DNA of 64,000 nucleotides from Marinigracilibium pacificum (GTDB lineage: Bacteria > Bacteroidota > Bacteroidia > Cytophagales > Cyclobacteriaceae), in contig NZ_JABBNU010000004.1 in assembly GCF_012926615.1 (NCBI RefSeq), positions 186,001-250,000 on the forward strand, written 5' to 3'. The position numbers and the translations under genes are program-made. Position 1 is the first letter of the stretch; each line of letters opens with the position of its first letter. The notes under the pieces are model-generated. The model did not search any database. It had not been told where the DNA came from and saw only the letters and a list, made by a program, of their open reading frames with translations. Below, piece by piece: positions 6,187-24,829 of the stretch.

Positions 6187-7755
6187 ATGAGACAATTTAC
6201 AAAATTAAAAGTGGGTTTACTTTTGTGTCTGTTTTGTTCTATTTCTTTATTTGGACAGGACAAACCAAACATATTGGTAATATGGGGAGATGATATTGGC
6301 ACCTGGAATATCAGCCATAATAACCGGGGCATGATGGGATATAAAACACCGAATATAGATCGAATAGCAAAAGAAGGTGTTGGCTTTACTGATTATTATG
6401 CCCAGCAAAGTTGTACTGCAGGACGCGCTGCATTTATTTCGGGCAGCGTACCCGTGCGTTCAGGAATGACAAAAGTAGGTTTACCCGGAGCAGCACAAGG
6501 TTGGCAAAAGACCGATGTCACGATGGCTACCGTGTTAAAAAGTCAGGGGTATGCTACAGGTCAGTTTGGTAAAAATCACCAGGGAGATCTTGATGAGCAC
6601 TTGCCTACTATGCATGGATTTGATGAGTTCCTGGGCAATTTATATCACCTGAATGCTGAAGAAGAGCCGGAAAACCGTGATTACCCTAGAGACATGAAAC
6701 TTAAAAACGGAAAGACCTTTCTTGAGACTTATGGTCCACGAGGGGTTATTCATAGCTGGGCTGATGGCAAGGGAGGTCAGCGAATCGAAGACACTGGTCC
6801 ATTGACTAAAAAGAGAATGGAAACCATCGATGATGAAACTGTAGCTGCAGCCATTAGATTTATCAAAGAGCAGAACGAAGCCGGTAAACCTTTCTTTGTT
6901 TGGTGGAATGGCACAAGAATGCACTTCAGAACACATGTAAAAGAAGAACATAAAGGCATTTCAGGTCCTAGTGGTGATGAGTATCATGATGGCATGGTTG
7001 AGCACGATATGCATGTAGGTGAATTATTAAAAGTATTAGATGAACTGGGCATTGCAGATAATACAGTAGTAATGTACTCAACGGATAATGGTCCGCATTA
7101 TAATACATGGCCTGATGCTGGAACGACACCTTTCCGTAGTGAAAAAAACTCTAACTGGGAAGGAGCATACAGGGTTCCGGCTTTTGTCAGGTGGCCGGGC
7201 AAATGGCAAGCAAATGTTACATTAAATGGTATCGTTGCTCATGAAGACTGGTTACCTACCTTTGCTGCAATTGCAGGAGCACCGGATATAAAAGATAAGC
7301 TATTAAAAGGAGTTGGACTAAATGGTAGAAACTACAAAAATCATATTGACGGATATAATCTGAATGATTATTTATCGGGGAAAACAGATCAATCACCCCG
7401 TCATGAGTTCTGGTATGTTAATGATGATGGTCAGATCGTTGCTGCCCGTTATGATGACTGGAAAGTTGTATTTCTTGAAAATCGTGGTGAAGCATTTGGA
7501 GTCTGGATGGAGCCTTTTACCGAATTAAGAGTACCTGCAATATTTAACTTACGAAGAGATCCTTTTGAAAAGGCACAACACAATGCTAATGTATATTATG
7601 ACTGGTTGTTAGAAAGAGCCTATGTATTAGTGCCAATTCAACAATTAGCAGGTGAATTTTTACAAACTATGAAGGATTATCCTCCAAGTCAATCACCGGG
7701 TTCATTTAATTTGAGTTCAATTGAGGAAAAAATAAAAGAAGGATTGGGGCATTAA
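6187..7755 (+). CDS. Exported arylsulfatase-family sulfatase (paralog 1)
   Basis: 522 residues from the ATG at 6187, chosen because it begins a clean signal peptide (MRQFTKLKVGLLLCLFCSIS, cleavage near FGQ). The upstream in-frame ATG at 6136 would precede it with an unlikely extension. Metal-site motif [10 protein letters not shown] is at residues 27-36. The sulfatase signature SCTAGRAAF follows, whose Cys76 would be converted to formylglycine. Further conserved parts are FGKNHQGD and STDNGPH. It should hydrolyse sulfate esters in the periplasm or outside. It is about equally similar by eye to the two other sulfatases here. A barrel gene follows after 37 nt, probably in the same mRNA. No maturase gene is in the window. 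Confidence 0.92.
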   Translation: MRQFTKLKVGLLLCLFCSISLFGQDKPNILVIWGDDIGTWNISHNNRGMMGYKTPNIDRIAKEGVGFTDYYAQQSCTAGRAAFISGSVPVRSGMTKVGLPGAAQGWQKTDVTMATVLKSQGYATGQFGKNHQGDLDEHLPTMHGFDEFLGNLYHLNAEEEPENRDYPRDMKLKNGKTFLETYGPRGVIHSWADGKGGQRIEDTGPLTKKRMETIDDETVAAAIRFIKEQNEAGKPFFVWWNGTRMHFRTHVKEEHKGISGPSGDEYHDGMVEHDMHVGELLKVLDELGIADNTVVMYSTDNGPHYNTWPDAGTTPFRSEKNSNWEGAYRVPAFVRWPGKWQANVTLNGIVAHEDWLPTFAAIAGAPDIKDKLLKGVGLNGRNYKNHIDGYNLNDYLSGKTDQSPRHEFWYVNDDGQIVAARYDDWKVVFLENRGEAFGVWMEPFTELRVPAIFNLRRDPFEKAQHNANVYYDWLLERAYVLVPIQQLAGEFLQTMKDYPPSQSPGSFNLSSIEEKIKEGLGH

Positions 7756-7792
7756 AAAAATGGTGGGTATAAAGCCCATCGCCTAAACATTT

Positions 7793-8812
7793 ATGATTCG
7801 ATCTTTAAAAATTGTTTGTGTATTAATTTTATTTTCATCTTTCTATTCGTTTGGACAGGGAAGACAGGCATATGACAATGAAGTCTATAATGACTATTTT
7901 GATAGCCTTAAAAACATGGAATATAATAAGTTCCTCCCGATTTTAGGCGATAAGGTATATAAAAGAGGTTATGATATCCAGTATGGTTATGGAATAAGTG
8001 CTGTATATTTCACTCAGACTCAAGAGATTGATATTCAGAGAACTTTATTGGGTTTTAATAATAGTGAACTAGTGGATATGAGTGATTTTATAGTATTTGC
8101 CCCTACTGTAGCTACTACCAATGCCTATACTGTCAGACCGGATATCTGGATATTACCTTTTCTGAATGTTTATGCAATTATCGGAGGGGGTACAACCCAG
8201 ACTGATGTTACTTTAATTGAACCCATTGGAATCCAGACATCTCAGCGTTTTGGAGCTTCATCATTTGGCCTTGGTGTTACACTTGTTGGGGCTGTTGGGC
8301 CAGTCTGGATGGCCTGGGATAATAATTATAACTGGGCAGATGTTGAAGTAGTGGTTGAGCCTGTACCGGCATATAACGGTAGCCTAAGGATAGGTCATAC
8401 TTTCTTCAATGCTAATAATCCCCAGAAAAGCCTTGCAGTATGGGCCGGAGCCTTTTACCAGATAATCCAGAGTGATACAGAAGGAAGTATTCCACTACAA
8501 AATGTCTTTCCAGATATCGGTAGCGGACAGACAATTGATAATCTAAGAGAATGGGCTTCTACCCTGCCTCCGCCCCAACGATTAATTGCAAATCAAATTA
8601 TCAATAAACTTGAGGATATCAGTAATGGAATAGATCCCGATAATGCAATAATAAATTACAAGCTTGATAAGAAGGTAGCAAAACCTATGAACTTAATATT
8701 TGGTGCTCAATATCAATTTAATAAACATTGGATTTTAAGGACCGAACTTGGGGTATTTGGAAAACGAAGTCAGTTCATGCTTAATTTAAACTATCGCTTT
8801 ACAGGATTATAG
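7793..8812 (+). CDS. Putative outer-membrane beta-barrel protein in sulfatase operon
   Basis: 339 residues with a signal peptide (MIRSLKIVCVLILFSSF, cleavage near FGQ). The body is rich in alternating hydrophobic and aromatic strands with Gly/Asn turns. The C-terminus ends in an outer-membrane-like final strand (LNLNYRFTGL). A helical insert around residues 240-285 interrupts the strands. I do not recognise a named family. It follows sulfatase 1 by 37 nt, so it may be a channel for the sulfatase substrate or product. That role is inference from position alone. Confidence 0.65.
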   Translation: MIRSLKIVCVLILFSSFYSFGQGRQAYDNEVYNDYFDSLKNMEYNKFLPILGDKVYKRGYDIQYGYGISAVYFTQTQEIDIQRTLLGFNNSELVDMSDFIVFAPTVATTNAYTVRPDIWILPFLNVYAIIGGGTTQTDVTLIEPIGIQTSQRFGASSFGLGVTLVGAVGPVWMAWDNNYNWADVEVVVEPVPAYNGSLRIGHTFFNANNPQKSLAVWAGAFYQIIQSDTEGSIPLQNVFPDIGSGQTIDNLREWASTLPPPQRLIANQIINKLEDISNGIDPDNAIINYKLDKKVAKPMNLIFGAQYQFNKHWILRTELGVFGKRSQFMLNLNYRFTGL

Positions 8813-10532: not shown

Positions 10533-10555
10533 GAAAATATATTTCACTGAAACTT

Positions 10556-10596: not shown

Positions 10597-10685
10597 ATTT
10601 TATGAAAGCCCACAATAATATTCAAAAGAAAATAACATACCCGGTATAGTTAAATACCAGAAACGATTATTTTAATATCATTATA

Positions 10686-10705
10686 AATGAATTAACTTAT
10701 ATAAG
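10686..10705 (+). promoter_or_regulatory. Conserved upstream box of DUF3604 gene 1
   Basis: AATGAATTAACTTATATAAG, 99 nt before the ATG. The same 20-mer recurs exactly before DUF3604 gene 2 and in altered form before genes 3 and 4, sulfatase 3 and the 20,991 barrel. A GTTATCAAT follows 59 nt before the ATG. It is likely a promoter upstream element or activator site; which of these is inference. Confidence 0.55.
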
Positions 10706-10784: not shown

Positions 10785-12683
10785 ATGAAAACTATAAGTT
10801 ATTATCTTATTGTAATATCACTCGTATTTCTTGGTTCCTGTTCAGGAAACCAGGAAAGTGAAGATACAACTGAATCAACTGAAAACGACATCGTTGAAGT
10901 TGAGGTTAAAACCAATCCTTTAAGAGATGTTTACTGGGGCGATCAGCACGTGCATACTGCCTGGTCTGCCGATGCCGGTGCAGCAGGTACCCGTATTGGC
11001 CCTGAAGAAGTACTTCGCTTTGCCAGAGGTGAAGAGGTGATAAGTGCATCACAGCAAAAAGCAAAACTTGCCCGACCTTTAGACTGGGTGGCTATTACAG
11101 ATCACTCAGATGGAGCAGGTGTAATCAATGCCGTCATTGAGGGAGATCCGGAAGTTATGGGCGACCCAATAGTTGCTCAATATCATGAAGATATGGAAGC
11201 TGGTGGTGAGAAAGCCGCAGCAGTTATGATGGATTTAATAAATCGGCAATCAAACGGAAACCTACCTGATGTATTTATGGACCCTGAATTTGCAGCATCA
11301 GTTTGGTTACGAAATATTGAAATTGTCGAAGAATATAATGACCCCGGAACATTTACTGCTTTCATTGCCTACGAGTGGACATCCAATTATGGTGGGGGGA
11401 ATAACCTTCACCGTAACGTGATCTACCGGGATAATGGTGATATAGCGTCCAAGATGTCACCAATGACGACTTTCGACTCTGAAAATCCGGAAGACCTGTG
11501 GAAATGGATGGCGAATTTTGAAGAAAAAACGGGTGGCCATTTACTGGCTATTCCACATAATGGAAATTTATCCAATGGTCTTATGTTTCGCACGGTAGCT
11601 TTTGACGGAAGCGAATTAACTAAAGAACTTGCCACACTAAGAAATAAATATGAGCGCCTCTACGAAACTACTCAAGGTAAAGGAACAAGTGAGGTCCATC
11701 CTTCTCTTGCCGCCAATGATGAATTTGCCAGTTTCGAGATATGGGACAAAGGAAACCTGGTAATGGTTCCTAAAGAACAAGAAATGCTTCAATATGAATA
11801 TACACGTAGTGCGTTGAAAAATGGACTGATGCTGGAAGACAAGCTGGGTGTAAATCCTTTTAAGTATGGACTAGCATCAGGAACAGATACACATACCGGT
11901 TTATCTACAGCCGATGAGAATAATTTCTGGGGAAAATACGCTTCTTCAGAACCAAGCCCCGAAAGATGGGACGAAAAAGCGCTTGATTTTCCTTCTGGTT
12001 ATGTTCTCGGTTGGGAACTTGGTGCTTCAGGTTATACTGGAGTATGGGCAGAATCTAATACACGTGAAGCACTTTGGGATGCGATGCATCGAAGAGAAAC
12101 ATATGCTTCAACAGGTCCTCGGATGACAGTTCGTTTCTTTGGTGGCTTTGATTATACAGAAGATGATCTGGATATTTCCAATATGGTTCAAAACGGATAT
12201 GACAAAGGGGTGCCGATGGGAGGAGATCTTTCTAATGCACCTGAAGGCAAAGCTCCGGTATTTATGGTCTATGCAAATAAAGATCCTGAAGGTGGAAACC
12301 TTGATCGTATACAGATCATTAAAGGATGGTTGAATTCAAACGGAAAAACTGAAGAAAAAATCTTTAATGTTGCCTGGGGTGATGCAGATTCAAGAAACCT
12401 GGATAGCAATGGTAATCTTCCTGAAGTTGGTAATACAGTCAATGTTGAAAAAGCGACTTGGGAAAACAGTATCGGAGATTCTGAATTAAAAGCCATCTGG
12501 ACTGATCCGGATTTTGACCCAAACCAAAGAGCTTTTTACTATGTCAGGGTAATCCAGATCCCAACTCCACGATGGACTGCTTATGATGCACTGAATTATG
12601 ATCTGGAGATGACTGATGATGTGCCGATGAGTTTACAAGAAAGAGCTTATACATCTCCAATATGGTATACCCCATCAAAATAA
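10785..12683 (+). CDS. DUF3604 lipoprotein with PHP-like metal motifs (paralog 1)
   Basis: 632 residues. The lipobox FLGSC places lipidation at Cys19, followed by an acidic Ser/Glu/Thr-rich linker, a composition compatible with surface export in Bacteroidota. The DUF3604 domain fills the rest. Candidate metal ligands are GDQHVHTAW (His55, His57), ITDH (Asp106, His107), AIPHNGN, and SGTDTHTG near residue 365. These resemble the HxH, DH, H and DxH motifs of the PHP phosphoesterase superfamily. The exact reaction is unknown. A metal-dependent hydrolase acting at the envelope on the same substrate as the sulfatases is inference. The start context CACGATCAATG recurs, as CACGATCTATG, in the paralogs. 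Confidence 0.85.
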   Translation: MKTISYYLIVISLVFLGSCSGNQESEDTTESTENDIVEVEVKTNPLRDVYWGDQHVHTAWSADAGAAGTRIGPEEVLRFARGEEVISASQQKAKLARPLDWVAITDHSDGAGVINAVIEGDPEVMGDPIVAQYHEDMEAGGEKAAAVMMDLINRQSNGNLPDVFMDPEFAASVWLRNIEIVEEYNDPGTFTAFIAYEWTSNYGGGNNLHRNVIYRDNGDIASKMSPMTTFDSENPEDLWKWMANFEEKTGGHLLAIPHNGNLSNGLMFRTVAFDGSELTKELATLRNKYERLYETTQGKGTSEVHPSLAANDEFASFEIWDKGNLVMVPKEQEMLQYEYTRSALKNGLMLEDKLGVNPFKYGLASGTDTHTGLSTADENNFWGKYASSEPSPERWDEKALDFPSGYVLGWELGASGYTGVWAESNTREALWDAMHRRETYASTGPRMTVRFFGGFDYTEDDLDISNMVQNGYDKGVPMGGDLSNAPEGKAPVFMVYANKDPEGGNLDRIQIIKGWLNSNGKTEEKIFNVAWGDADSRNLDSNGNLPEVGNTVNVEKATWENSIGDSELKAIWTDPDFDPNQRAFYYVRVIQIPTPRWTAYDALNYDLEMTDDVPMSLQERAYTSPIWYTPSK

Positions 12684-12701
12684 CACAGATTTAATTTTTA
12701 A

Positions 12702-12736
12702 AACACGGTCAGTATACTCCTGACCGTGTTTTTTTT
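12702..12736 (+). terminator. Terminator after DUF3604 gene 1
   Basis: 11-bp perfect stem AACACGGTCAG / CTGACCGTGTT around a TATACTC loop, then a T run. The hairpin is almost the same as those after the three following paralogs. Confidence 0.88.
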
Positions 12737-12760
12737 GTTATCGATAGTTGATTCAATATA

Positions 12761-12780
12761 AATGAATTAACTTATATAAG
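12761..12780 (+). promoter_or_regulatory. Conserved upstream box of DUF3604 gene 2
   Basis: AATGAATTAACTTATATAAG, identical over 20 nt to the box of gene 1, 101 nt before the ATG and only 25 nt after the previous terminator. ATAGCTTTCTGATTATCAA follows downstream, in the place where a -7 element would be expected. Confidence 0.55.
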
Positions 12781-12861: not shown

Positions 12862-14739
12862 ATGAAACCTATAAGTTATTACCTTATTGTGATGTCGTTC
12901 ATAATTATGACCTCATGTTCCGGGAATAAGGAAAGCGAAGAAACAGCCCAGACAACTGAAGAAGCAACAGTTGCAAACGAAATTAAATCAAATCCATTAA
13001 AGGATGCATACTTTGGTAATGTCCACATTCACACCAGCTATTCATTTGATGGATACACCAACAAATGTCCGACTAACCCTGAAGACGCTTATCGATGGGC
13101 AAAAGGAGAAGCTATCCCTGGTGGTGGCGGAGGTGGTGATCTGCAAATAAATGAGCCGTTGGATTTTTATGCCGTTTCCGATCATGCCGAATGGATGGGG
13201 ATGTTTAAACAAATGGAAAATCCTGAAAGTCCATTGAGTAAACTGGATTTTGCAAAAAGAGTGACTTCAGAGGATCCCGCAGTTTCTTTCCAGGCATTTG
13301 CTGATTTTCTATATGATTTCAGTACAGGTGGCGAACTTTCTAAAGAACCCTTGTTTTCAGATCCGGAAATAATGAAATCTGTCTGGGCTGAAATCGTAAA
13401 AACAGCTGACGAGCATTATGAACCGGGAAAATTTACTACCTTCCCTGCTTTTGAATGGTCATCCAATCCTAATACTAGAAACCTTCATCGGGTTGTCGTA
13501 TTTGAGAATTCAGAAAATATTCCTGATCTGGCTTTTTCAACGAATGATTCAGATAAACCGGAAGATCTATGGAAATGGATGGAAGGTTGTCGCGCTAATG
13601 GTGCTACTTTGTTAGCCATACCTCATAATGCAAATGCCAGTGATGGATTAATGTTTTCATTAAGAGATTCTGAAGGTAATCCACTTTCAATGGCCTATTC
13701 AGAAATGCGGATGAAAAATGAACCCTTGTATGAGATCTCTCAAATTAAAGGAACCTCCGAGGTTCATCCTGACCTCTCTCCAAATGATGAGTTTGCCGGA
13801 TTTGAATTATGGGATTACACCCTTGCTGCTACTGCAGAACGACCAACAAATAGAAAAGGTAGCTATTTCAGACAAGCATTACTAGATGGAATAGAAATTG
13901 AAAAAAATGGAAATGGTAACCCATTTAAATATGGAGTAATTGGTGATTCTGATGGGCATAATTCAGCTGCCTCTGTGGAAGAAGATAATTACACTGGGAA
14001 ATTTGCTACGGAAAACAGTCCAGCGCACCGTATTAATGGTCCGGAAGGTTTCTCGGAAAAAAACAAACAGCAGTTGCGTGAATTCAGCTCAGGAGGGTTA
14101 GCCGGAGTATGGGCGGAATCAAATACCCGTGAAGCTATTTTTGAAGCAATGATGAGAAAAGAGACTTTTGGAACTTCCGGAACGAGAATGAAAGTACGAT
14201 TATTTGGCGGATATGACTTTCCTGATAATTTATTTGAAAATACCAATTGGGTAAAGTCTGCGTATGAAGGAGGTATTCCTATGGGAAGTACTTTACCGGC
14301 TTCTCAAGGAAAAGCCCCTACTCTTGTTATTCATGCCATTAAAGATGCAAACGGAGCGAATCTTGATCGTATCCAGGTAATTAAAGGCTGGGTAGATAAA
14401 AATGGTAAGCAAATGGAAAAAATATATAATGTTGTGGTATCAGATGATAGGACAATTGATTCAAACGGCAGTGTAGATCCCGTTGGAAATACGGTAAATG
14501 TAGCTGAGGCCTCATATTCCAATAGTATTGGTGATCCTGAATTAAAAACTGTTTGGACGGACCCGGATTTTGACCCTTCACTATCAGCTTTTTACTACGT
14601 TAGAGTATTAGAGATACCAACACCCAGGTGGAGTACTTATGATGCAAAGACTCTTGGAATCGAGCCCCGTGATGACTTACCTGTTACCATTCAGGAAAGA
14701 GGCTGGTCGAGCCCGATCTGGTATACCCCATCAAAATAA
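12862..14739 (+). CDS. DUF3604 lipoprotein with PHP-like metal motifs (paralog 2)
   Basis: 625 residues. The signal segment MKPISYYLIVMSFIIMTSC ends in a lipobox Cys at 19, followed by SGNKESEE and an acidic linker. Candidate metal ligands are GNVHIHTSYSFD (HxH), VSDHAEW (DH), AIPHNANASDG, and IGDSDGHNS (DxH). It differs from paralog 1 in a Gly-rich insertion after the first motif (IPGGGGGGD) and in having LWDYTLAATA before the last motif. Both traits resemble paralog 3, so genes 2 and 3 are probably the more recent duplicates. Function is as proposed for paralog 1. The start is preceded by CACGATCT. Confidence 0.85.
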   Translation: MKPISYYLIVMSFIIMTSCSGNKESEETAQTTEEATVANEIKSNPLKDAYFGNVHIHTSYSFDGYTNKCPTNPEDAYRWAKGEAIPGGGGGGDLQINEPLDFYAVSDHAEWMGMFKQMENPESPLSKLDFAKRVTSEDPAVSFQAFADFLYDFSTGGELSKEPLFSDPEIMKSVWAEIVKTADEHYEPGKFTTFPAFEWSSNPNTRNLHRVVVFENSENIPDLAFSTNDSDKPEDLWKWMEGCRANGATLLAIPHNANASDGLMFSLRDSEGNPLSMAYSEMRMKNEPLYEISQIKGTSEVHPDLSPNDEFAGFELWDYTLAATAERPTNRKGSYFRQALLDGIEIEKNGNGNPFKYGVIGDSDGHNSAASVEEDNYTGKFATENSPAHRINGPEGFSEKNKQQLREFSSGGLAGVWAESNTREAIFEAMMRKETFGTSGTRMKVRLFGGYDFPDNLFENTNWVKSAYEGGIPMGSTLPASQGKAPTLVIHAIKDANGANLDRIQVIKGWVDKNGKQMEKIYNVVVSDDRTIDSNGSVDPVGNTVNVAEASYSNSIGDPELKTVWTDPDFDPSLSAFYYVRVLEIPTPRWSTYDAKTLGIEPRDDLPVTIQERGWSSPIWYTPSK

Positions 14740-14794: not shown

Positions 14795-14819
14795 GTGATC
14801 AATAGTTGAATTAATATAT

Positions 14820-14923: not shown

Positions 14924-16798
14924 ATGAAAGATATAAGTTATTATCTTATTGTGATGACATTCGTGTTTCTTGGTTCCTGCTCTGGTAACAAGGAAAGCGA
15001 AGAAACGAACGAAACGACAGAAGAGGAAGTAGTTGAAAACGAAATCAAATCAAATCCTTTAAAGGAGGCATATTTTGGAAACCTTCATGTGCATACAAGC
15101 TGGTCTTTCGATGCCTATATAAATGGCTCGATCACCGGTCCGGATGATGCATATCGATGGGCACAAGGAGAATCCATACCAGGTGGTGGTGATGGCACTC
15201 CCCTTCAAATCAAAAAGCCTTTGGATTGGTATGCTGTATCTGATCATGCCGAATATCTAGGGGCTTTACCAAAAATGGCTGATCCAAATAGTCCGATGAG
15301 CAAACACCCTCTTGCAAAAGATATAACCGGTGATGACCCGGTGGCTGCCTTTGCTGCATATACCGAAATTTCTAATGGAATATATCAGGAAAGAAAAAAG
15401 GATCCGATATTAGGTGATTCTACTTTTGCAGCCAGTACCTGGACTGAGATAATAGATATTGCCGATAAACATTATAACCCGGGTACTTTTACCACTTTTG
15501 CTGCTTTTGAGTGGACTGCAGCACCTGACTGGAGAAATATCCATAGAATCGTTCTTTTTAAGGATACCGAAAATGTTCCTTCTGTCCCATTTTCTGCAGT
15601 TGACTCTGATGTACCAGAGAATCTATGGAAATGGATGGATGCCCAACGAGCGAATGGCAGCCATCTTCTGGCAGTACCGCATAATGGAAATGCCAGTGAT
15701 GGAATTATGTTTCCAATTGGAACAACCTATGGTGGAAGTGAGATTAATCAGGAGTATTCAACAACAAGAATGCGCAATGAACCAGTTTATGAACTGATTC
15801 AGATAAAAGGTGCTTCTGAAACCATGCCTCTACTTTCACCTAGTGATGAATTTGCTGATTTTGAAATATGGGACTATACCCTTGCAGCTACTGCCACACC
15901 ACCAAAAAATAAGAAAGGTGGTTACATGAGGGAAGCGCTTATTCGCTCAATGAAATATGAACAGGAAGGTAAAGGAAATCCATTTAAATATGGTTTCATT
16001 GGAGATTCTGACACCCACAACTCCTATTCTCCTATTGAAGAAGATAATTACCATGGCAAATTTGGGTTTGAAAATAATCCTGAACACCGGTTAGACGGAC
16101 CTCCGGGCGTTGATGAAAAGGGAGCAAATCAAGTGAGAAAGTTTGGAAGTGCAGGGCTTGCAGGCGTATGGGCAGAATCAAATACCAGGGAAGCCATATT
16201 TGATGCGATCATGCGAAAAGAAACCTTTGCTACATCCGGACCACGATTGAAAGTTCGATTCTTTGGCGGGTTCAATTATCCTGAAAATATATTGGAGAAT
16301 TCTGACTGGGTGAAAGAAGGATATGCAAATGGTGTACCGATGGGTGGAGATCTAACTGCTTCAGATGGAAAAGCACCTTCATTTATAATTCATGCGATAA
16401 AAGAAGCTGATGGTGCAAATCTTGATCGTATTCAAATTATTAAGGGCTGGGTAGACGCAAATGGAAATACTTACGAAAAGGTGTTTGATGTAGCCTTTTC
16501 AGATGATCGAAAATTAGATGCTAATGGAAACGTACCGGCTGTTGGAAATACAGTCAACGTAGCAGAAGCTAGTTACACCAATGATATTGGAGATACCGAG
16601 TTAAAAACAGTTTGGACCGATCCTGAATTCGATCCTTCACAATATGCTGTTTATTATACCAGAGTGCTTCAAATTCCTACTCCTAGATGGAGCACCTATG
16701 ACGCAAAAACTTTAGGTAGAGAACCAAGAAAAGATCTTCCGGTAAGTATACAGGAAAGAGCCTGGTCAAGTCCGATCTGGTATACTCCAGCAAAATAA
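14924..16798 (+). CDS. DUF3604 lipoprotein with PHP-like metal motifs (paralog 3)
   Basis: 624 residues. Lipobox VFLGSC gives Cys19, then SGNKESEE and an acidic linker. Candidate metal ligands are GNLHVHTSWSFD (HxH), VSDHAEY (DH), AVPHNGNASDG, and IGDSDTHNS (DxH). It shares the IPGGGDG insertion and IWDYTLAATA with paralog 2. The C-terminal part contains the family block VRFFGGF, then MGGD and a beta-rich region ending SSPIWYTPAK, nearly identical in all four paralogs. The 3' flank with terminator is almost the same as that of paralog 4. The role at the envelope is inferred as for the other copies. Confidence 0.85.
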   Translation: MKDISYYLIVMTFVFLGSCSGNKESEETNETTEEEVVENEIKSNPLKEAYFGNLHVHTSWSFDAYINGSITGPDDAYRWAQGESIPGGGDGTPLQIKKPLDWYAVSDHAEYLGALPKMADPNSPMSKHPLAKDITGDDPVAAFAAYTEISNGIYQERKKDPILGDSTFAASTWTEIIDIADKHYNPGTFTTFAAFEWTAAPDWRNIHRIVLFKDTENVPSVPFSAVDSDVPENLWKWMDAQRANGSHLLAVPHNGNASDGIMFPIGTTYGGSEINQEYSTTRMRNEPVYELIQIKGASETMPLLSPSDEFADFEIWDYTLAATATPPKNKKGGYMREALIRSMKYEQEGKGNPFKYGFIGDSDTHNSYSPIEEDNYHGKFGFENNPEHRLDGPPGVDEKGANQVRKFGSAGLAGVWAESNTREAIFDAIMRKETFATSGPRLKVRFFGGFNYPENILENSDWVKEGYANGVPMGGDLTASDGKAPSFIIHAIKEADGANLDRIQIIKGWVDANGNTYEKVFDVAFSDDRKLDANGNVPAVGNTVNVAEASYTNDIGDTELKTVWTDPEFDPSQYAVYYTRVLQIPTPRWSTYDAKTLGREPRKDLPVSIQERAWSSPIWYTPAK

Positions 16799-16850: not shown

Positions 16851-16874
16851 GCGGTTAATGGTTTGATTATTATA

Positions 16875-16892
16875 AATGAATTAACTTATAAG
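16875..16892 (+). promoter_or_regulatory. Upstream box of DUF3604 gene 4
   Basis: AATGAATTAACTTATAAG, identical to the gene 1 and 2 boxes except for a missing TA step, 100 nt before the ATG at 16975. AATAGCCATG follows at the expected distance. Confidence 0.5.
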
Positions 16893-16974
16893 AAGTATGT
16901 TAATAGCCATGTAATTTTCAATTACACCACACTTGAAGATTGATTTATTGGCGAACTATAAAAACACACGATCT

Positions 16975-18873
16975 ATGAAAACCATATACAACCAATTGGT
17001 GATTCTGTTGGGAATTATCGTAATGATATCCTGTTCAGGAAGCCAGGAAAGTGACGATACCACTGAATCGACAGAAAACGACATAGTAGAAGTTGAGATT
17101 AAATCAAACCCAATGAAAGATGTTTACTGGGGCGATACGCACAATCATACCGGAAATTCCTTTGATGTATACTTATTTGGCACGCCAAACTCTACTCCCG
17201 AAACTGCTTACCGTTTCGCTAAGGGAGAAGAAGTTGAAAGCCCGACTACAGGAAGACCAATGAAATTGACTGAACCACTTGACTTCCTTGTTATTGCTGA
17301 TCATGCAGAATTATTGGGATCAATGCCATTAATGTATGAAAATACCCCGGGAATTTCTGATTCAAAATCAGGTCAGGCATTTTTGAAAATAGCCCCGGAT
17401 AAAACTGATGAAAAAGGACTTCAGAAAATTTATGATATTTTAAACTTTGCAGCTTTTGACCAGCCTAATGAGGCCAATCTGGGCAGTAAAGATTTGATTA
17501 ATGATCTTGGGGGAGAAAACCGTAAAGAAGCCTGGGCGCGATATGTTGAAACAGCAGATGCACACAATAACCCGGGAACATTCACAACACTTATAGGTTG
17601 GGAATGGTCATCCAATAATAGCGGAGCCAATTTACATCGGGTAGTTTTTATGCCACAGGGAAAAGATGTTGCAAATCAGTTTTTACCATATAGTGCATTA
17701 AGTAGTGATAATCCTGAAGATCTCTGGGCATGGCTGGAGGAGACAAGTGGTCGTACCGGTGCCGAGTTTGTCGCCATTCCTCATAATCCGAATATCAGTC
17801 TGGGGCTGATGTTTCCTGAGACCAGGCTAAATGGAGAACCTATTGACAGAGAATATGCTGAAAGCCGTATGAAGTGGGAGCGAAATGTTGAAATCACCCA
17901 AATCAAAGGCGATTCAGAAACCCACCCTGCCCTGTCACCAAATGATGAATTTGCTGATTTTGAAACATATGATTTTGCACTGACGCCTGACGGAACCAGA
18001 TCTAAACCAACAGAAGCTGATTATGTCCGATCCGGATTAAAACGCGGGCTGGCAATGGAACAAAAGCTAGGCGTAAATCCCTATAAAATTGGATTAATAG
18101 GAAGTTCGGATTCTCATACCGGAATGTCTGCAATAGAAGAAACGAATTTTGCCGGCAAAGGTCAACACGATGCCACTCCTGAGAAAAGGCCTCATCCAAC
18201 AGGTATTGGATCTTCAAAGGGCTGGGACATGGGAGCTGCAGGCTGGGTTGCTGTCTGGGCTGAAAATAATACCCGCCAAAGTATTGTTGATGCCTTCCAG
18301 CGAAAAGAAGTCTATGCAACAACGGGACCTAGAATTACATTACGCTTTTTTGGAGGCTTTGAATTTACGGACGATGATCTTTACGGAAACATGTTACAAA
18401 CTGGTTATGACAAAGGCGTTCCAATGGGTGGTGATTTGAATCAAAATGGAGAAAAAGCACCAACATTCATGATCTCTGCCATCAAAGATCCAAATGCAGC
18501 TAATCTCGATCGAATCCAGGTGGTTAAAGGATGGCTTGAAGCAGATGGCAGCACCAGTGAAATGGTTTATAATGTTGCCCTATCAGATGACAGAACTGAT
18601 GGAAGTATTGCTGTTGGTAATACTGTAGATATGAATACAGGAAAATATACAAATACCATAGGTGATGCCGATTTAAAAGTAGTCTGGAAAGATCCGGATT
18701 TTAATCCAGCACAGCATGCTTTTTATTATGTCAGGGTATTAGAAATTCCAACTCCGAGATACTCCTTACTTGATGCGATTGAATTGGGAATAGATGTAAA
18801 GGAAACCAACCATCCTGCCACAATTCAGGAAAGAGTCTATAGTTCCCCGATCTGGTATACTCCAGCAAAATAA
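16975..18873 (+). CDS. DUF3604 lipoprotein with divergent first metal motif (paralog 4)
   Basis: 632 residues from the ATG at 16975. This start was chosen over the in-frame ATG at 16933 because it is preceded by the conserved CACGATCT and begins a clean lipoprotein signal (VMISC). The post-Cys sequence SGSQESDD and acidic linker match paralog 1. Candidate metal ligands are GDTHNHTGNSFD (HxH kept, surrounding residues changed), IADHAEL (DH), AIPHNPNIS, and GSSDSHTG (DxH). An extra segment around residues 120-180 is not aligned with the other copies. Substrate preference may therefore differ. It is the last DUF3604 copy before sulfatase 3. Confidence 0.85.
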   Translation: MKTIYNQLVILLGIIVMISCSGSQESDDTTESTENDIVEVEIKSNPMKDVYWGDTHNHTGNSFDVYLFGTPNSTPETAYRFAKGEEVESPTTGRPMKLTEPLDFLVIADHAELLGSMPLMYENTPGISDSKSGQAFLKIAPDKTDEKGLQKIYDILNFAAFDQPNEANLGSKDLINDLGGENRKEAWARYVETADAHNNPGTFTTLIGWEWSSNNSGANLHRVVFMPQGKDVANQFLPYSALSSDNPEDLWAWLEETSGRTGAEFVAIPHNPNISLGLMFPETRLNGEPIDREYAESRMKWERNVEITQIKGDSETHPALSPNDEFADFETYDFALTPDGTRSKPTEADYVRSGLKRGLAMEQKLGVNPYKIGLIGSSDSHTGMSAIEETNFAGKGQHDATPEKRPHPTGIGSSKGWDMGAAGWVAVWAENNTRQSIVDAFQRKEVYATTGPRITLRFFGGFEFTDDDLYGNMLQTGYDKGVPMGGDLNQNGEKAPTFMISAIKDPNAANLDRIQVVKGWLEADGSTSEMVYNVALSDDRTDGSIAVGNTVDMNTGKYTNTIGDADLKVVWKDPDFNPAQHAFYYVRVLEIPTPRYSLLDAIELGIDVKETNHPATIQERVYSSPIWYTPAK

Positions 18874-18927: not shown

Positions 18928-18950
18928 ATAATCAATTGTTGAATTAAAAA

Positions 18951-18970
18951 ATATGAATTAACTTTTGTTT
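18951..18970 (+). promoter_or_regulatory. Upstream box of sulfatase 3
   Basis: ATATGAATTAACTTTTGTTT, 102 nt before the sulfatase ATG. It keeps the ATGAATTAACTT core of the DUF3604 boxes, and the gene also has their CACGATCTATG start context. Confidence 0.45.
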
Positions 18971-19052: not shown

Positions 19053-20588
19053 ATGAAAAAATTAAAAAGCATCTTTTTCATCCTGGCATTTGTGTTTCTA
19101 GCTCCGGCGCTTATTTGTCAGAATAAGGACAAACCAAATATTTTGGTAATTTGGGGCGATGATGTGGGTATGTGGAATATTTCAGCTTACCATAGAGGAA
19201 TGATGGGTGGAACAACCCCGAATATCGATCGAATTGGAAAAGAGGGAATGATCTTTATGGATCATTATGCCCAGGCATCATGTACAGCAGGCAGAGCGGC
19301 TTTCATACTAGGCCAGTATCCGATGAGAACCGGTTTAAGTACCGTTGGGTTACCCGGAGCTAAAGAAGGGATCCAGGATAGTGATCCTACACTTGCTCAG
19401 ATGTTAAAAGCAGTTGGGTATCGAACTGGTCAATTTGGCAAAAACCACCTTGGAGACAGAGATGAACACTTACCTACTGCTCACGGGTTTGATGAATTTT
19501 ATGGAATTCTTTACCATCTTAATGCCGGTGAATATCCTGAGCAATATGACTACCCAAAAGATCCTGAGGTTCTAAAACAATTAAAACTTAATCAAAGAGG
19601 AATAATTCATTCAAAAGCTACTGGAAATGGTAAGCAGGAAATTAAAGATTTAGGTCCTTGGGGAACAGAAGTTCAGCGTAATCTGGATCAGCAGGTCCTA
19701 GAAGAATCAAAACGATTTATCCGTGATGCTGTTAAAGATGACGAGCCATTTTTTGTCTGGCATAACACGACAAGAATGCATTACAGAACCAACTTGAATG
19801 ATGAATACCAGGGTAAGAGTGGGTATGGTTTGTATGCAGATGGTATGATGGAATTGGATGATGATGTGGGAGAATTACTTAATCTTCTTGAAGAGCTCGG
19901 GGTTGATGAAAATACGATTGTAATGTTCTCAACAGATAATGGAGCCGCATCAAACAGTTGGCCTGATGGAGGAAACCATCCTTTCCATGGTCAAAAAGGT
20001 GTTGGTGGCTGGGAAGGCGGTTTTCGAGTTCCCGTTTTAGTGAAATGGGATGGCCATATCCCTGCAGGAACTACTACAGGTGAATTTATGACAATGGAAG
20101 ATTGGGTACCTACACTTATGTCATGGGTTGGTCAAACTGATGTCAAAGAGAAACTACTTAATGGACATTCAATTGGCGGCAAATCATTTAAAGTCCATCT
20201 GGATGGCTATGACCAAAGTGATATTTTATTAAATAATGGAAAGAGTAAACGTAAAGAGTTTTATTATTTTACAGAAACTACTTTACATGGTATGCGATAT
20301 GGAGATTGGAAAGTGCTTTTCAGAGATCAAAAACACTGGTTCCGTTCTCCTCAGCCATTATTATCAACACCAATCGTAACTAATTTAAAACTAGATCCTT
20401 TTGAACGATTTCACGATGCTCGAGGATATGATGAGTGGGCTGAAAACAGAAGTTGGGTACTTGGCCAGATAGGTAGCCATTTAGGATCCTTTTTGGAAAC
20501 TTTTAAGGAATACCCTCCCAGCCAAGAAAGTTTTTCTATTCAGTTAGGTGACTTTAATTCAATGCTCAATATGGTGACTTCGGATTAA
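19053..20588 (+). CDS. Exported arylsulfatase-family sulfatase (paralog 3)
   Basis: 511 residues. Signal peptide MKKLKSIFFILAFVFLAPAL with cleavage near ICQ. Metal-site motif [10 protein letters not shown]. The signature [10 protein letters not shown] holds the Cys77 to be made formylglycine. FGKNHLGD and STDNGAASNSWPDGG follow. It should hydrolyse sulfate esters in the envelope. Unlike sulfatases 1 and 2 it carries the start context CACGATCTATGAAA and the leader box of the DUF3604 genes, which suggests that it belongs to the same regulon. A strong hairpin terminator follows. The subfamily and substrate cannot be assigned by eye. Confidence 0.92.
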   Translation: MKKLKSIFFILAFVFLAPALICQNKDKPNILVIWGDDVGMWNISAYHRGMMGGTTPNIDRIGKEGMIFMDHYAQASCTAGRAAFILGQYPMRTGLSTVGLPGAKEGIQDSDPTLAQMLKAVGYRTGQFGKNHLGDRDEHLPTAHGFDEFYGILYHLNAGEYPEQYDYPKDPEVLKQLKLNQRGIIHSKATGNGKQEIKDLGPWGTEVQRNLDQQVLEESKRFIRDAVKDDEPFFVWHNTTRMHYRTNLNDEYQGKSGYGLYADGMMELDDDVGELLNLLEELGVDENTIVMFSTDNGAASNSWPDGGNHPFHGQKGVGGWEGGFRVPVLVKWDGHIPAGTTTGEFMTMEDWVPTLMSWVGQTDVKEKLLNGHSIGGKSFKVHLDGYDQSDILLNNGKSKRKEFYYFTETTLHGMRYGDWKVLFRDQKHWFRSPQPLLSTPIVTNLKLDPFERFHDARGYDEWAENRSWVLGQIGSHLGSFLETFKEYPPSQESFSIQLGDFNSMLNMVTSD

Positions 20589-20597
20589 ATTAATAAG

Positions 20598-20646: not shown

Positions 20647-20863
20647 CTTAATGATATTTTTAAGTAAATTTTACTATTAAATATTTCAACATTTCGGTTG
20701 ATTTTTAGTGTTGGTTAGAAATTGAAATAACTTCATAATTTTAAAGCGAACTACCCTAAACCCTTCTGATCTTTGATTTCTTTTAGTTCAATTATTTCCT
20801 GAGAACGAAATCATATATCCAAAACCGTAACTTGTCATTTAAATCATTAGGCATATTTGTATA

Positions 20864-20884
20864 AATGATTTAACTTATATATAG
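20864..20884 (+). promoter_or_regulatory. Upstream box of the barrel-parvulin-HupE operon
   Basis: AATGATTTAACTTATATATAG, one substitution within the AATGAATTAACTTATATA core, 127 nt before the ATG at 20991. It links this operon to the DUF3604 and sulfatase genes as one probable regulon. Confidence 0.45.
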
Positions 20885-20990
20885 TATGTCTATAACCCTA
20901 TCATGATTGATAAAGTGATAATTTTGATATGCTATTTATTAATTCATTTAAAGCCCAAAGTATGAAACTATGGTACAACCGTTACAAAAT

Positions 20991-21818
20991 ATGAGATTAT
21001 TGTATTCCTTAATTTTCTTTATTTTTTTAAGCTTCAGTGCTAATGCACAAGAGGAAGACAAAAAGGAAGAGCAAATTGATACAAAATCAGGATCAGAAGC
21101 TGAAGAACTGGCAAAAAAACTGGCTAATCCAATAGCTTCATTAATATCTATACCTTTACAAAACAACACAGACTTTGGTATTGGTGAACTTGAGGGAACC
21201 AGAAATACCTTAAATATTCAACCTGTGGTTCCAATCAGATTAGGTGATAACTTAAACCTGATAACACGGTATATTTTCCCAGTTGTTACACAGTATAACA
21301 TTACTGGTGTCGGTGAGAAACAAAGTGGCCTAAGTGATGCTGTTGTATCAGCTTTCTTTTCTCCGAGTAATTCTAAAAACTTAACCTGGGGTATTGGCCC
21401 TGTATTTTTGCTACCAATTGGCACTGATGACCTTCTTACAACTGATAAATTTGGCGTTGGCCCAACAGCTGTAGCATTAACTCAAACTAACGGGTGGACA
21501 ATTGGAGGTTTGATAAATCAGATTTGGTCTGTTTCAGGTAATGAAGACCGTGCAGACGTCAGTCAAATGTTTGTTCAGCCTTTTGTGGTATATAACTGGA
21601 AATCCGGGGCTGGTCTTGGGGCTAATTTAGAATGGACACAAAATTGGGAGACTTCCGAATCTACTATCTGGTTAAATCCAACATTCAGTGCCGTGAGTTC
21701 TATGGGAAACCAGAAATTTCAGTTAGTTATAGGTCCCAGATTTAATCTCGATGCCCCCGATGGAGCAAAGGCTGACCTAGGAGGCAGGGCAGTACTAATT
21801 TTCTTATTTCCTAAATAG
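20991..21818 (+). CDS. Outer-membrane barrel of the phenol-degradation MetA-like / 'neuromedin U' type
   Basis: 275 residues from ATG 20991, chosen over the ATG at 20970 because it starts the signal peptide MRLLYSLIFFIFLSFSANA. After an acidic Glu/Lys linker (residues about 21-45) come repeated amphipathic strands with motifs such as NIQPVVPI, GLSDAVVSAFFSP and VGPTAVALTQ. The C-terminus is AVLIFLFPK. Proteins of this kind are often annotated as putative transporters or 'neuromedin U' in marine bacteria. A passive channel role is a guess. It is the first gene of a same-strand run with the parvulin, HupE/UreJ and Omp85-like genes. Confidence 0.6.
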   Translation: MRLLYSLIFFIFLSFSANAQEEDKKEEQIDTKSGSEAEELAKKLANPIASLISIPLQNNTDFGIGELEGTRNTLNIQPVVPIRLGDNLNLITRYIFPVVTQYNITGVGEKQSGLSDAVVSAFFSPSNSKNLTWGIGPVFLLPIGTDDLLTTDKFGVGPTAVALTQTNGWTIGGLINQIWSVSGNEDRADVSQMFVQPFVVYNWKSGAGLGANLEWTQNWETSESTIWLNPTFSAVSSMGNQKFQLVIGPRFNLDAPDGAKADLGGRAVLIFLFPK

Positions 21819-21873
21819 GTTGAACAAAAAAATGTCAGTATTTTATTAGTATCTACCAAACCAGTTTTTGATA

Positions 21874-22746
21874 ATGAAAAGATTTTTAAAAGAACCATTT
21901 CTTCATTTTGTATTAATTGGGTTCGCCATATTTATTGTTTATGCTTTGACTGTGGATGATAATGACTCTGAAAATGCAATTATTATCGATAATAGTGACA
22001 TCAGTCATATGGTTTCAATCTGGGAGTTGCAATGGCAAAGAAAACCTACTACCGAAGAACTATCCGGACTTATAAGTAAAACACTCAAACAGGAAATCAT
22101 GTATCGGGAAGCATTAAAAATGAATCTTGATCATAATGATGAAGTGATTAAGCGCAGGCTTGCTCAAAAAATGGATTTTATAACCAGCGATGTATCTGCA
22201 ATGGTAAATAATCCAACTGACAAAGACTTGAAAAATTATTACAATAAGTATTCTGAAAGGTATATGCGGCCCGCTCAATATAGCTTTTACCAGATTTGTT
22301 TCACTTTTGATAACCACTCAGATCCGGTCAATCAAGCCAAATCAGTTTTAGAAGAGCATGGTAATGTTTCAATTGAGGAATTCACAAAATTAGGTGACCC
22401 ACTACCCTTTCCTTTTTATTATGAAAGTATCTATGCCAATAAGCTTAATTCAGAACTTGGTGGAAACATTGCTGAAACAATGGAAGGATTACCATTAAAT
22501 CAATGGACCGGTCCTGTTGAATCAGGTTTTGGAACCCATCTTGTCTATATCACCGAGAAAATTGAACCTCAACTACCCTCTTTCACTCAAATGAAAGATG
22601 TGATAAAGAGAGATTATGACTATGATATGGAACAGGAAAGTCGTGAAAAGATTTATGAAAATTTAAAAAGTAGCTATAACATTAAGCTTGAGGCAGATAT
22701 CAATAAAGAGTTAAGAGAAAAGATTTTAAAAGAATTCGGTAGCTAA
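21874..22746 (+). CDS. Membrane-anchored parvulin-type peptidyl-prolyl isomerase
   Basis: 290 residues from ATG 21874. A single N-terminal helix (FLHFVLIGFAIFIVYAL) anchors the protein with the rest in the periplasm. The middle has a SurA/PpiD-like helical chaperone segment (residues about 35-125). The C-terminal half carries the parvulin-like core (AQYSFYQICF, then GNIAETMEGLPLNQW, then GPVESGFGTHLVYITEK). It probably folds or inserts exported partners. Its place directly before a HupE/UreJ gene and near DUF3604 and sulfatase genes suggests a dedicated chaperone, which is inference. The spacing to HupE/UreJ is 17 nt. Confidence 0.8.
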   Translation: MKRFLKEPFLHFVLIGFAIFIVYALTVDDNDSENAIIIDNSDISHMVSIWELQWQRKPTTEELSGLISKTLKQEIMYREALKMNLDHNDEVIKRRLAQKMDFITSDVSAMVNNPTDKDLKNYYNKYSERYMRPAQYSFYQICFTFDNHSDPVNQAKSVLEEHGNVSIEEFTKLGDPLPFPFYYESIYANKLNSELGGNIAETMEGLPLNQWTGPVESGFGTHLVYITEKIEPQLPSFTQMKDVIKRDYDYDMEQESREKIYENLKSSYNIKLEADINKELREKILKEFGS

Positions 22747-22763
22747 CATAAATTGAATTAAAG

Positions 22764-23750
22764 ATGATTAAGCGATATTATTTATTAATCTTATTCTTGT
22801 TTCTGCCTGAATTTCTTTTTTCACATGAAATGAGGCCTGCCTATCTCCATATCAAGCAGGTAAATGAAACGACCTACCATGTATTCTGGAAGATCCCTCG
22901 CCGAGGCGATATGGTGATTCGGTTGAGTCCCGTTTTTCCGGAATCATCATCATTAAATGAGTTTGCATTGCCTAAGCTGATGGATGGCGCAATGCTTTAT
23001 TCTTATTCTTTGGTTACAGAAACTCCCTTAGAGGGTCAAAAAGTTACTATCGATGGATTACAAAAGACCATGATCGATGTGCTTGTAAATGTAGACTATC
23101 TTAATGGAGAAAAGGTGTCATTTATGCTGAAACCTGATGATACGGAAAAAATCATACCCGGAAAGATGAGTACTTTTGCCGTTATCAAAAATTACACAGT
23201 GCTGGGTGTAGAACATATCTGGTTTGGTATTGATCATTTACTCTTTGTCCTCGCCCTGATTATTATTACCAAAGGATTTAAAAAGATTGTAAAAACGATC
23301 ACAGCCTTTACCATTGCTCATAGTATTACCCTGAGTATGGCTGTTTTAGGATTTGCAAATTTACCAGGTCCACCTGTCGAAGCGGTCATTGCTTTAAGTA
23401 TTGTGTTTCTTGCAATTGAAATAATTAAAAATGCCAATGGTAAAGAAACAATTACAAGTAAGAAACCCTGGTTAGTAGCATTTACATTTGGATTATTGCA
23501 TGGCTTTGGATTTGCCGGAGCATTAGCAGAAGTTGGCCTTCCACAAACTGATATACCCTTGGCGCTAGCCTTTTTTAATATTGGTGTAGAGCTCGGACAA
23601 ATTGCCTTTGTAATTTTGGTTCTATTAATTATTAAAGCATTATCATACAAAGAAAACTGGCCTTTGATATTAAAGAAAGCTCCTGCTTATGCCATTGGAT
23701 CTTTAGCTGCATTCTGGACTATCCAGAGAATTGCCGGGTTCTGGTTTTAA
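22764..23750 (+). CDS. HupE/UreJ-family membrane protein with extracytoplasmic N-terminal domain
   Basis: 328 residues. The signal peptide (YYLLILFLFLPEFLFS) is followed by a beta-rich extracytoplasmic domain of about 120 residues beginning HEMRPAYLHI. A six-helix membrane domain follows. It has family-type His motifs VEHIWFGIDHLLF, TIAHSITLS and GLLHGFGFAGA. HupE and UreJ are known or proposed nickel permeases of hydrogenase and urease operons. This longer HupE/UreJ_2 type has no proven substrate. No hydrogenase or urease gene is nearby, so a metal supply role for the DUF3604 enzymes is possible but unproven. It follows the parvulin by 17 nt. Confidence 0.82.
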   Translation: MIKRYYLLILFLFLPEFLFSHEMRPAYLHIKQVNETTYHVFWKIPRRGDMVIRLSPVFPESSSLNEFALPKLMDGAMLYSYSLVTETPLEGQKVTIDGLQKTMIDVLVNVDYLNGEKVSFMLKPDDTEKIIPGKMSTFAVIKNYTVLGVEHIWFGIDHLLFVLALIIITKGFKKIVKTITAFTIAHSITLSMAVLGFANLPGPPVEAVIALSIVFLAIEIIKNANGKETITSKKPWLVAFTFGLLHGFGFAGALAEVGLPQTDIPLALAFFNIGVELGQIAFVILVLLIIKALSYKENWPLILKKAPAYAIGSLAAFWTIQRIAGFWF

Positions 23751-23767
23751 TTATAATTAATAAAGTG

Positions 23768-24829
23768 ATGGTCAAAAAAAAATATTCCTACTTATTGATT
23801 ATCAGCTTATTATATTTAATTCCGTTTAAATCAGATTGTCAGGAAAAGCTTAATAATGATAAAAAATTCAGGGTAGTTGCTCTACCAACCATAGACTACA
23901 ACAGGTCATTAGGATTCAAGATAGGTGCTACAAGTATGGGTTTCTTTGACCTAAACGAAAAGGACTCCATTTCACCAGTTTCATCTGTTGGTTTAATGGG
24001 GTTTTGGTCTACAAATAACTCCTGGGTTGTAATGGCACATACTCAGTTATTTTTATCAGAAAACAAATATCGAATAAAAGCTGCAGCAGGCCTGGTAGAC
24101 TTCAACTCTCAATACTATGAAGAAGATGTTTTTCCGGGTGGTTTATTTGTTGATTTTAATACAACTTCAGATTTCGTCTACTTCTTATTTGCTTTTAAGT
24201 TACGTAAGAATTTATACCTTGGTCCGCAGGTATTATTTTCTAAAAGAGAAACTCTATTTGATCTACCAGGAGATTCCGGTAATGAACAAAGGGCATTTAA
24301 CGGACTTGGTGGTGCATTAGAGTGGGATGACAGATCAAATGTGTACAATTCTCATTCGGGTTTATATGCGAAGCTATCCGGATTTAGCTACAATGACTGG
24401 CTTGGGTCGGATGTTGAGTTTAATAACCTCCAACTAGAAATAAACAAGTATTTTCCATTAGATTCAAACCGAACCATTGCTACCAGGTTTTTTGGGTATT
24501 TTGCTCTTGGAAATAATATTCCCTTCGAAGCTCAGCGTTCTGTAGGAAGAAAAGACATTAGAGGCTATACACAAGGTGAATTCAGAGGAGAGCAAATTAT
24601 ATCAGCTCAAGCAGAATACCGATGGACTTTCTATAATAAATGGGGAATGGTTGCTTTTGCAGGATTGGCTATTTCTAATGACCCCGAAGGCTGGAGTCAG
24701 TTGTTACCAGGCGGTGGTGCCGGCATAAGATACATGATGATCCCTGATAAGCGCATCAATGCAGGTATTGATATTGCTGGTGGTGTTCGTGACTGGGGAA
24801 TCTATTTCAGGATAACAGAGGCATTTTGA
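23768..24829 (+). CDS. BamA/TamA (Omp85)-like outer-membrane barrel without POTRA repeats
   Basis: 353 residues from ATG 23768 (a GTG precedes it in frame at 23765). A signal segment (YSYLLIISLLYLI) is present. The body is a surface-antigen/Omp85-type barrel. Early strands contain ALPTIDYNRSLGFKIGATS. Later come LEWDDRSNVYNSHSG, VGRKDIRGYTQGEFRG and GGGAGIRYMM, close to family motifs around the sixth extracellular loop. The protein ends in an aromatic strand (WGIYFRITEAF). There is no room for POTRA domains, so it is not BamA itself. It closes the parvulin-HupE operon (14-nt spacing) and its stop lies inside a terminator stem. Confidence 0.7.
   Translation: MVKKKYSYLLIISLLYLIPFKSDCQEKLNNDKKFRVVALPTIDYNRSLGFKIGATSMGFFDLNEKDSISPVSSVGLMGFWSTNNSWVVMAHTQLFLSENKYRIKAAAGLVDFNSQYYEEDVFPGGLFVDFNTTSDFVYFLFAFKLRKNLYLGPQVLFSKRETLFDLPGDSGNEQRAFNGLGGALEWDDRSNVYNSHSGLYAKLSGFSYNDWLGSDVEFNNLQLEINKYFPLDSNRTIATRFFGYFALGNNIPFEAQRSVGRKDIRGYTQGEFRGEQIISAQAEYRWTFYNKWGMVAFAGLAISNDPEGWSQLLPGGGAGIRYMMIPDKRINAGIDIAGGVRDWGIYFRITEAF

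Follow-up and report, generated by a model that had tools for sequence, protein, structure and literature searches.

What kind of system is encoded by a block of sulfatase and DUF3604 genes in Marinigracilibium pacificum, and which of its genes belong together? The block lies entirely on the + strand at 6187-24829 of the window, by which we mean the whole 64,000-nucleotide stretch that was analysed (contig NZ_JABBNU010000004.1, positions 186,001 to 250,000). Across genomes, DUF3604 is tightly linked to one parvulin subfamily and to a long-form HupE/UreJ membrane protein, and the association is near-obligate. This triad is the core and the unit to study, and the sulfatases are optional. On balance we lean, without strong conviction, towards an export-side ester-hydrolase system with DUF3604 at its core, two dedicated helpers, and optional barrels and sulfatases. 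The genes of the block are the following (window coordinates).

6187..7755, + strand: sulfatase 1, exported S1-type sulfatase with the formylglycine motif CTAGR (PF00884, E 5.9e-45); the open reading frame begins at 6136, and the likelier MRQF start at 6187 was chosen by inspection
7793..8812, + strand: barrel A, exported barrel-like protein (by inspection), with relatives in loci L026, L028 and L036
8961..10532, + strand: sulfatase 2, exported S1-type sulfatase, CTAGR (PF00884, E 7.3e-55)
10785..12683, + strand: DUF3604 lipoprotein 1, predicted PHP-like metallohydrolase with a C-terminal beta domain (PF12228)
12862..14739, + strand: DUF3604 lipoprotein 2 (PF12228, E 5.4e-222)
14924..16798, + strand: DUF3604 lipoprotein 3 (PF12228, E 5.2e-220)
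16933..18873, + strand: DUF3604 lipoprotein 4 (PF12228, E 9.6e-236); by inspection, an internal ATG at about 16975 is the likelier start
19053..20588, + strand: sulfatase 3, exported S1-type sulfatase, CTAGR (PF00884, E 8.2e-52)
20970..21818, + strand: barrel B, exported barrel-like protein (by inspection), with relatives in 15 of 84 loci
21868..22746, + strand: parvulin of the DUF3604-linked subfamily, membrane-anchored by inspection (PF13145, E 1.5e-14)
22764..23750, + strand: long-form HupE/UreJ membrane protein with HX5DH and an extra N-terminal domain, probably exported (HupE_UreJ_2, PF13795, E 3.1e-48)
23765..24829, + strand: short Omp85-superfamily barrel (PF01103, E 1.5e-8)

The last four genes form a closely packed run (20970-24829). 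The first-pass annotation, made from the sequence alone, had placed three exported sulfatases, four DUF3604 proteins, a parvulin and a HupE/UreJ protein on this strand, and the Pfam matches bear this out. Of the three barrels it named, the Omp85-type one is supported by its match; barrels A and B had no Pfam match at E 0.001 and are barrels by inspection, with a sub-threshold PF13557 match in one of three scanned relatives of barrel B. The lipoprotein-type signals of the four DUF3604 proteins were also assigned by inspection. No RNA elements or tRNAs exceeded curated thresholds.

To delimit the unit, we compared 82 loci, comprising the best 80 of 530 confirmed DUF3604 relatives in genome contigs, so that the set holds the closest relatives, and two further Bacteroidota loci. 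Thirty-five of them have a flank shorter than 7 kb, and 47 have at least 7 kb on each side (full flanks). The parvulin was found in 61 of the 82 loci and HupE/UreJ in 62, side by side in 58. Among the full-flank loci the corresponding counts were 43, 42 and 41, the four without a parvulin being L044, L050, L079 and L081. In a sample of 392 Bacteroidota genomes (M. pacificum included), DUF3604 was present in three, and a profile made for the parvulin subfamily (E 1e-25) picked out those same three; up to three DUF3604 and six parvulin candidates were scored per genome. The HupE/UreJ genes adjoining DUF3604 have open frames of 326-349 amino acids. In the 57 of 82 loci where each of the three proteins was long enough, their pairwise distances are correlated with one another. 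These counts, like all association tests below, ignore kinship among genomes. The triad is frequent on rhizobial plasmids and often stands alone. Thus, of the earlier proposal that all families of the block form a single system, the triad stands and the sulfatases do not belong to the core; the co-occurrence survey it called for did find the families enriched together, tightly for the triad and, for the sulfatases, in DUF3604 genomes and modestly near DUF3604 genes.

What, then, is DUF3604? Its predicted model shows a PHP fold and a C-terminal beta domain, and its nearest fold neighbours carry phosphoesterase titles. PHP proteins have a metal-ligand pattern that runs, in order, HxH, DH, Glu, His, His and DxH. 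The putative counterparts in DUF3604 (H55, H57, H107, E197, H209, H258, D368 and H370) are invariant in all 70 aligned proteins and sit in or beside strands of the predicted model. As modelled, DUF3604 is a PHP-fold metallohydrolase with putative ligand roles, and from the fold and these residues we infer phosphoester cleavage. The structure prediction suggested by the first-pass annotation thus yielded a PHP fold, which fits its guess of a 'phosphorylated or otherwise esterified' substrate. A fold does not fix a reaction, and DUF3604 might keep the PHP fold yet hydrolyse a non-phosphoester, such as a lactone or an amide; amidohydrolase-family genes do occur in the same window (58466-63999) and in locus L087. 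The invariance of all putative metal ligands and the titles of the fold neighbours argue against this, and we consider it improbable. A sequence search of solved structures with DUF3604 gave no match at E 1 (single sequence) or E 5 (profile). In the literature searched, with subscription papers outside its scope, DUF3604 surfaced only as a table row in PMC11925237, which lists Chlamydia trachomatis CT_425 as a DUF3604 protein of 622 amino acids; PF12228 was not found there.

The two partners are predicted helpers. Active parvulins carry a catalytic His pair. The window parvulin has a rotamase domain, and at the first catalytic position it has Gln, as do 39 of the 48 aligned proteins (of 61 found; His in the other nine); the second His is kept in all 48. 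It may act like a parvulin-domain chaperone, as a holdase or foldase, and we do not claim peptidylprolyl isomerase activity for it. In HupE/UreJ, the HX5DH motif and further His and Glu residues are invariant in the 37 proteins aligned (of 62 loci). Nickel or cobalt transport characterises the HupE/UreJ family, and this member probably moves a divalent metal. Searches of the same literature for HupE with arylsulfatase and peptidylprolyl isomerase, or for HupE/UreJ with sulfatase, returned nothing, and the passages naming a 'UreJ family protein' in two papers concerned other subjects.

These parts suggest how an export-side ester-hydrolase system may work. The DUF3604 lipoprotein, with its PHP fold and C-terminal beta domain, would act as a metal-dependent phosphoester hydrolase; the inner-membrane-anchored parvulin, mostly without the usual catalytic His, would serve the exported hydrolase as foldase or holdase; and long-form HupE/UreJ would move the divalent metal that loads it. 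Barrel proteins and formylglycine sulfatases would be additions in some lineages. DUF3604 and the sulfatases would then most likely strip phosphate and sulfate esters, respectively, from extracellular or periplasmic substrates, either for phosphorus and sulfur nutrition or to open the carbon skeleton. We advance a broader version only tentatively, as one that may well prove wrong: the triad would be an undescribed cross-phylum cassette for the extracytoplasmic assembly of a metalloenzyme, with an export-side metallation apparatus of its own in which the parvulin largely gave up its isomerase site to hold a PHP hydrolase, HupE/UreJ delivers metal across the inner membrane via its exported N-terminal domain, and DUF3604 paralogues diversify as sulfatases and glycan hydrolases do.

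By record title, the 70 aligned DUF3604 proteins, of about 600 residues, come from nine phyla (Bacteroidota, Pseudomonadota, Verrucomicrobiota, Acidobacteriota, Planctomycetota, Nitrospirota, Myxococcota, Thermodesulfobacteriota and Campylobacterota), and their tree mixes these phyla. Copies 2-4 of the window share 43-48% identity with copy 1, and copies 2 and 3 are nearer each other on the tree. A recent tandem duplication was rejected because each of the four copies, all old separate lineages, pairs with its own Flavobacteriaceae relative. The 4.8 Mb genome of Ca. Litorirhabdus singularis IMCC14734 (locus L044) has 25 DUF3604 matches, against 1-7 in the other 37 genomes searched, and just five window-type sulfatases. 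Elsewhere on the tree, the DUF3604 proteins of a Burkholderiales metagenome-assembled genome (MAG) and an Akkermansia-titled MAG (L014 and L016) are very close, on short branches, through recent transfer or bin contamination.

Do the sulfatases define the locus? The first-pass annotation had made them part of its proposed system, and a sulfated-polysaccharide utilization locus, with DUF3604, parvulin and HupE/UreJ as ancillary parts, would account for them. S1 sulfatases share a set of catalytic residues and a formylglycine motif. The set (D32, D33, C73, R77, K126, H128, H258, D315, N316 and K335 in sulfatase 2) is invariant in all 14 sequences aligned, the three window enzymes have it complete, and the closest solved chain to sulfatase 2 is 7aj0, PsFucS1. 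That sulfatase acts on fucoidan and belongs to subfamily S1_13 (PMC8484680). However, the 12 block proteins scanned against Pfam (two without any match) include no SusC/SusD pair, glycoside hydrolase or polysaccharide lyase, so the block is not a SusC/D-type polysaccharide utilization locus as usually defined. Window-type sulfatases (more than 400 bits) occur near DUF3604 in only seven of the 82 loci, or five of the 47 with full flanks, leaving 75 (42 with full flanks) without one, although flanks shorter than 7 kb occur in 35 of the 82. Counting every sulfatase of 400 residues or more that is phmmer-related to those of the window gives 13 of 82. The frequency of the triad on rhizobial plasmids also speaks against a polysaccharide locus. 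On plasmids of Rhizobium leguminosarum WSM1689 and Neorhizobium petrolearium, two arylsulfatases, a formylglycine-generating enzyme (FGE) and a HAD hydrolase are encoded no further than 23 kb from it; on those of Sinorhizobium medicae WSM1115, Rhizobium indicum and Ensifer PDNC004 no sulfatase is annotated by it (up to 12-15 kb on each side, in an incomplete gene table). With no annotated sulfatase nearby in three of five such regions, a specifically marine or sulfated substrate is not supported either. A second sulfatase type, of about 800 residues (CSPTR, SSPTR or CSPSR), occurs near DUF3604 in L016, L039, L049, L054, L063 and L072.

At genome level the link is stronger, and here it favours the polysaccharide reading, which we nevertheless judge a poor prospect overall. 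The window-type subfamily (E 1e-120) was found in 34 of 38 DUF3604 genomes, or 30 of 34 when those that contributed to the profile are removed (profile A5, built from 14 sequences; the five contributors among the tested genomes are M. pacificum, G405, G407, G408 and G416). In the Bacteroidota sample it was found in 13 of 392, two of them DUF3604 genomes. Among Bacteroidota, the subfamily is present in 11 of the 12 genomes with DUF3604 and in 11 of the 389 without it (P 8.8e-15); the counts are 7 of 8 against 11 of 389 without profile-source genomes (Fisher P 8.5e-10), and 2 of 3 against 11 of 389 within the drawn sample alone (P 0.003). The 38 genomes are a subset of those behind the best-80 loci, mainly isolates (the Bacteroidota MAG loci L010, L038 and L052 were left out); this DUF3604-positive set comes from a different collection than the sample and includes draft genomes and MAGs. 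All or nearly all candidates were scored in the 38 genomes and at most three per genome in the sample, so the background of 13/392 may be an undercount and the contrast overstated. That all three CTAGR sulfatases of M. pacificum were recovered with three of 24 candidates scored suggests that the candidate ranking is sound. The sulfatases are optional and outside the core, and they are frequent partners of DUF3604 at genome level.

Their maturation can be accounted for. Thirteen sulfatases of M. pacificum exceed the Pfam cut-off; a formylglycine-type motif was read in 12 of them (none in L099), and CTAGR is confined to the three of the block. In the literature searched, CTAGR and sulfatase occurred together in two papers on conjugates. 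Four of its five PF03781 matches were read. One of them, L104 (251.5 bits, lipoprotein-like signal), contains CHSSYC, whose Cys pair we take to be that of formylglycine-generating enzymes. No radical-SAM maturase (TIGR03942) scored over the cut-off in this genome. The formylglycine requirement raised at first pass can thus, as far as the motif tells, be met by this FGE-like protein encoded elsewhere in the genome.

Proximity bears on another explanation, in which the PHP domain trims a phosphoester of the cell's own envelope (a lipid head group or surface polymer) in maintenance or signalling, and the sulfatases are there for unrelated reasons. Counted over 99 DUF3604 rows (ten partial ones removed) and the full 79 sulfatase rows, 10 of 38 genomes have a sulfatase gene and a DUF3604 gene no more than 15 kb apart (1.28 expected). 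Without profile-source genomes this drops to 6 of 34 (1.5 expected, P 0.0044), just modestly above chance, as such a module would allow. The membrane-anchored parvulin, the lipoprotein enzyme and the Omp85-like barrel also indicate the envelope, and the triad often occurs alone. Even so, patchy presence, a phylum-mixing tree and up to 25 copies per genome resemble accessory catabolic genes rather than housekeeping ones, and the genome-level link to sulfatases also speaks against such a module. We regard an envelope module as unlikely, if less so than the polysaccharide and non-phosphoester alternatives.

Is the block expressed as a unit? When up to three mismatches are allowed, the box TAAATGAATTAACTTATA is found five times in the window (0.45 expected). 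At no more than one mismatch it has four sites in the whole 4.96 Mb genome, all in this locus; two-mismatch sites elsewhere number four, against two for a backwards control. The relevant elements are as follows.

10684..10701, + strand: box before DUF3604-1, exact
12700..12732, + strand: terminator-like hairpin after DUF3604-1
12759..12776, + strand: box before DUF3604-2, exact
14817..14834, + strand: diverged box before DUF3604-3 (alignment and repeat family D11)
16873..16890, + strand: box before DUF3604-4, exact
18950..18967, + strand: diverged box before sulfatase 3 (alignment and repeat comparison)
20862..20879, + strand: box before the barrel B-parvulin-HupE/UreJ-Omp85 run, one mismatch

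Another diverged copy lies at about 6053, upstream of sulfatase 1, and none is clear at sulfatase 2. Related boxes had been proposed on six units; this is partly borne out, with four close matches and three diverged copies. Because this locus-specific box precedes DUF3604 genes as well as the helper run, common induction of these genes in this genome is probable. A single 18.6-kb operon was rejected because of the several boxes and the terminator-like hairpins after several DUF3604 genes (also after DUF3604-2 and -4, with related sequence after DUF3604-3). Overall, the terminator scan gave 18 sites against 13.2 in shuffles, and a scan for sigma-70-like promoters showed no excess (59 against 66.3).

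Several results weigh against an export-side ester-hydrolase system, or against parts of it. PF02811 gave no HMMER match to DUF3604 even at E 5. In profile-profile comparison, the trimmed N-terminal part of DUF3604 scored 66% (E 5.5e-5) against 18 TrpH-like PHP proteins (20 stretches fetched, two without a motif match dropped), with controls at 0.1-0.3%; against 30 DnaE PHP domains it scored 2.6%, no higher than a sulfatase control at 2.7%, and whole-length profiles with the -glob option gave 0.2% against PHP and 97.4% for the positive control. Profile-profile support for PHP kinship is therefore modest, appearing only after trimming and without the global option. HupE_UreJ_2 is commonplace without DUF3604 (121 of 392 Bacteroidota genomes, mostly proteins of about 200 amino acids), so the family name itself carries little weight. 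Besides the scarcity of sulfatases near DUF3604, one genome (G140) has the triad and no window-type sulfatase among the candidates scored. The likeness of the boxes among the DUF3604 genes and sulfatase 3 may reflect selection, local homogenisation or ancestry: the intergenic stretches around these DUF3604 genes and before sulfatase 3 are mutual repeats (families D10, D11 and D17). Intergenic and coding repeats have comparable identities (62-92% for D10 and 66-84% for D11, against 60-84% for coding ones), and selection on the box is one candidate among the three. Because the boxes of the DUF3604 genes may share ancestry, the one before barrel B is the main independent evidence of shared control. 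The box is absent, at up to three mismatches, from the loci of all 13 relatives searched, and a role as cross-species operator was rejected.

Some neighbouring genes deserve mention. A DUF1254/DUF1214 protein adjoins RND pump genes at 30882-32042; six of the 82 loci also have a member of a DUF1254/DUF1214 family close to DUF3604 (one was scanned). The periplasmic DUF2092 family recurs by the triad in eight of 82 loci, including L086, L140 and L209 (one member scanned), and is also annotated in two of the rhizobial plasmid regions. Molybdenum-cofactor genes and a molybdopterin hydroxylase lie at 38635-49456 (one gene scanned, other names by inspection). Genes for a DcaP-type porin and an M20 peptidase are followed downstream, at 58466-63999, by four amidohydrolase-like genes in a row (two scanned).

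DUF3604, an often multi-copy family with no described function in the literature searched, now has a fold, a probable set of active-site residues and two partner genes that are near-obligate, and routine assays for phosphatase or diesterase activity can be applied to it. Should the helpers indeed supply metal and fold the enzyme once it is exported, the triad would offer a compact model for bacterial metalloenzyme assembly outside the cytoplasm.

How does it compare with known systems? Among the closest to DUF3604 are the PHP metal-dependent phosphoesterases BVU_3505 (3e38) and TM0559 (2anu). In contrast to these, DUF3604 is about 600 residues long and, by inspection, a lipoprotein, has no PF02811 match and is accompanied by a parvulin and HupE/UreJ. 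The Sec-exported phosphodiesterase Sb-PDE of Sphingobium TCM1 resembles it in being an exported member of the PHP superfamily, in which zinc was found, whereas it has 441 residues and a PF02811 match, and the part of its description consulted mentions no parvulin or HupE partner (PMC5460133). The window sulfatases, with PF00884 and the full catalytic set, resemble PsFucS1, their own motif being CTAGR. The five triad-bearing plasmid regions have no annotated hydrogenase or urease gene (gene table incomplete). The window HupE/UreJ protein shares PF13795, HX5DH and the further invariant His and Glu with HupE/UreJ metal permeases, but it is longer, with an N-terminal domain that is probably exported.

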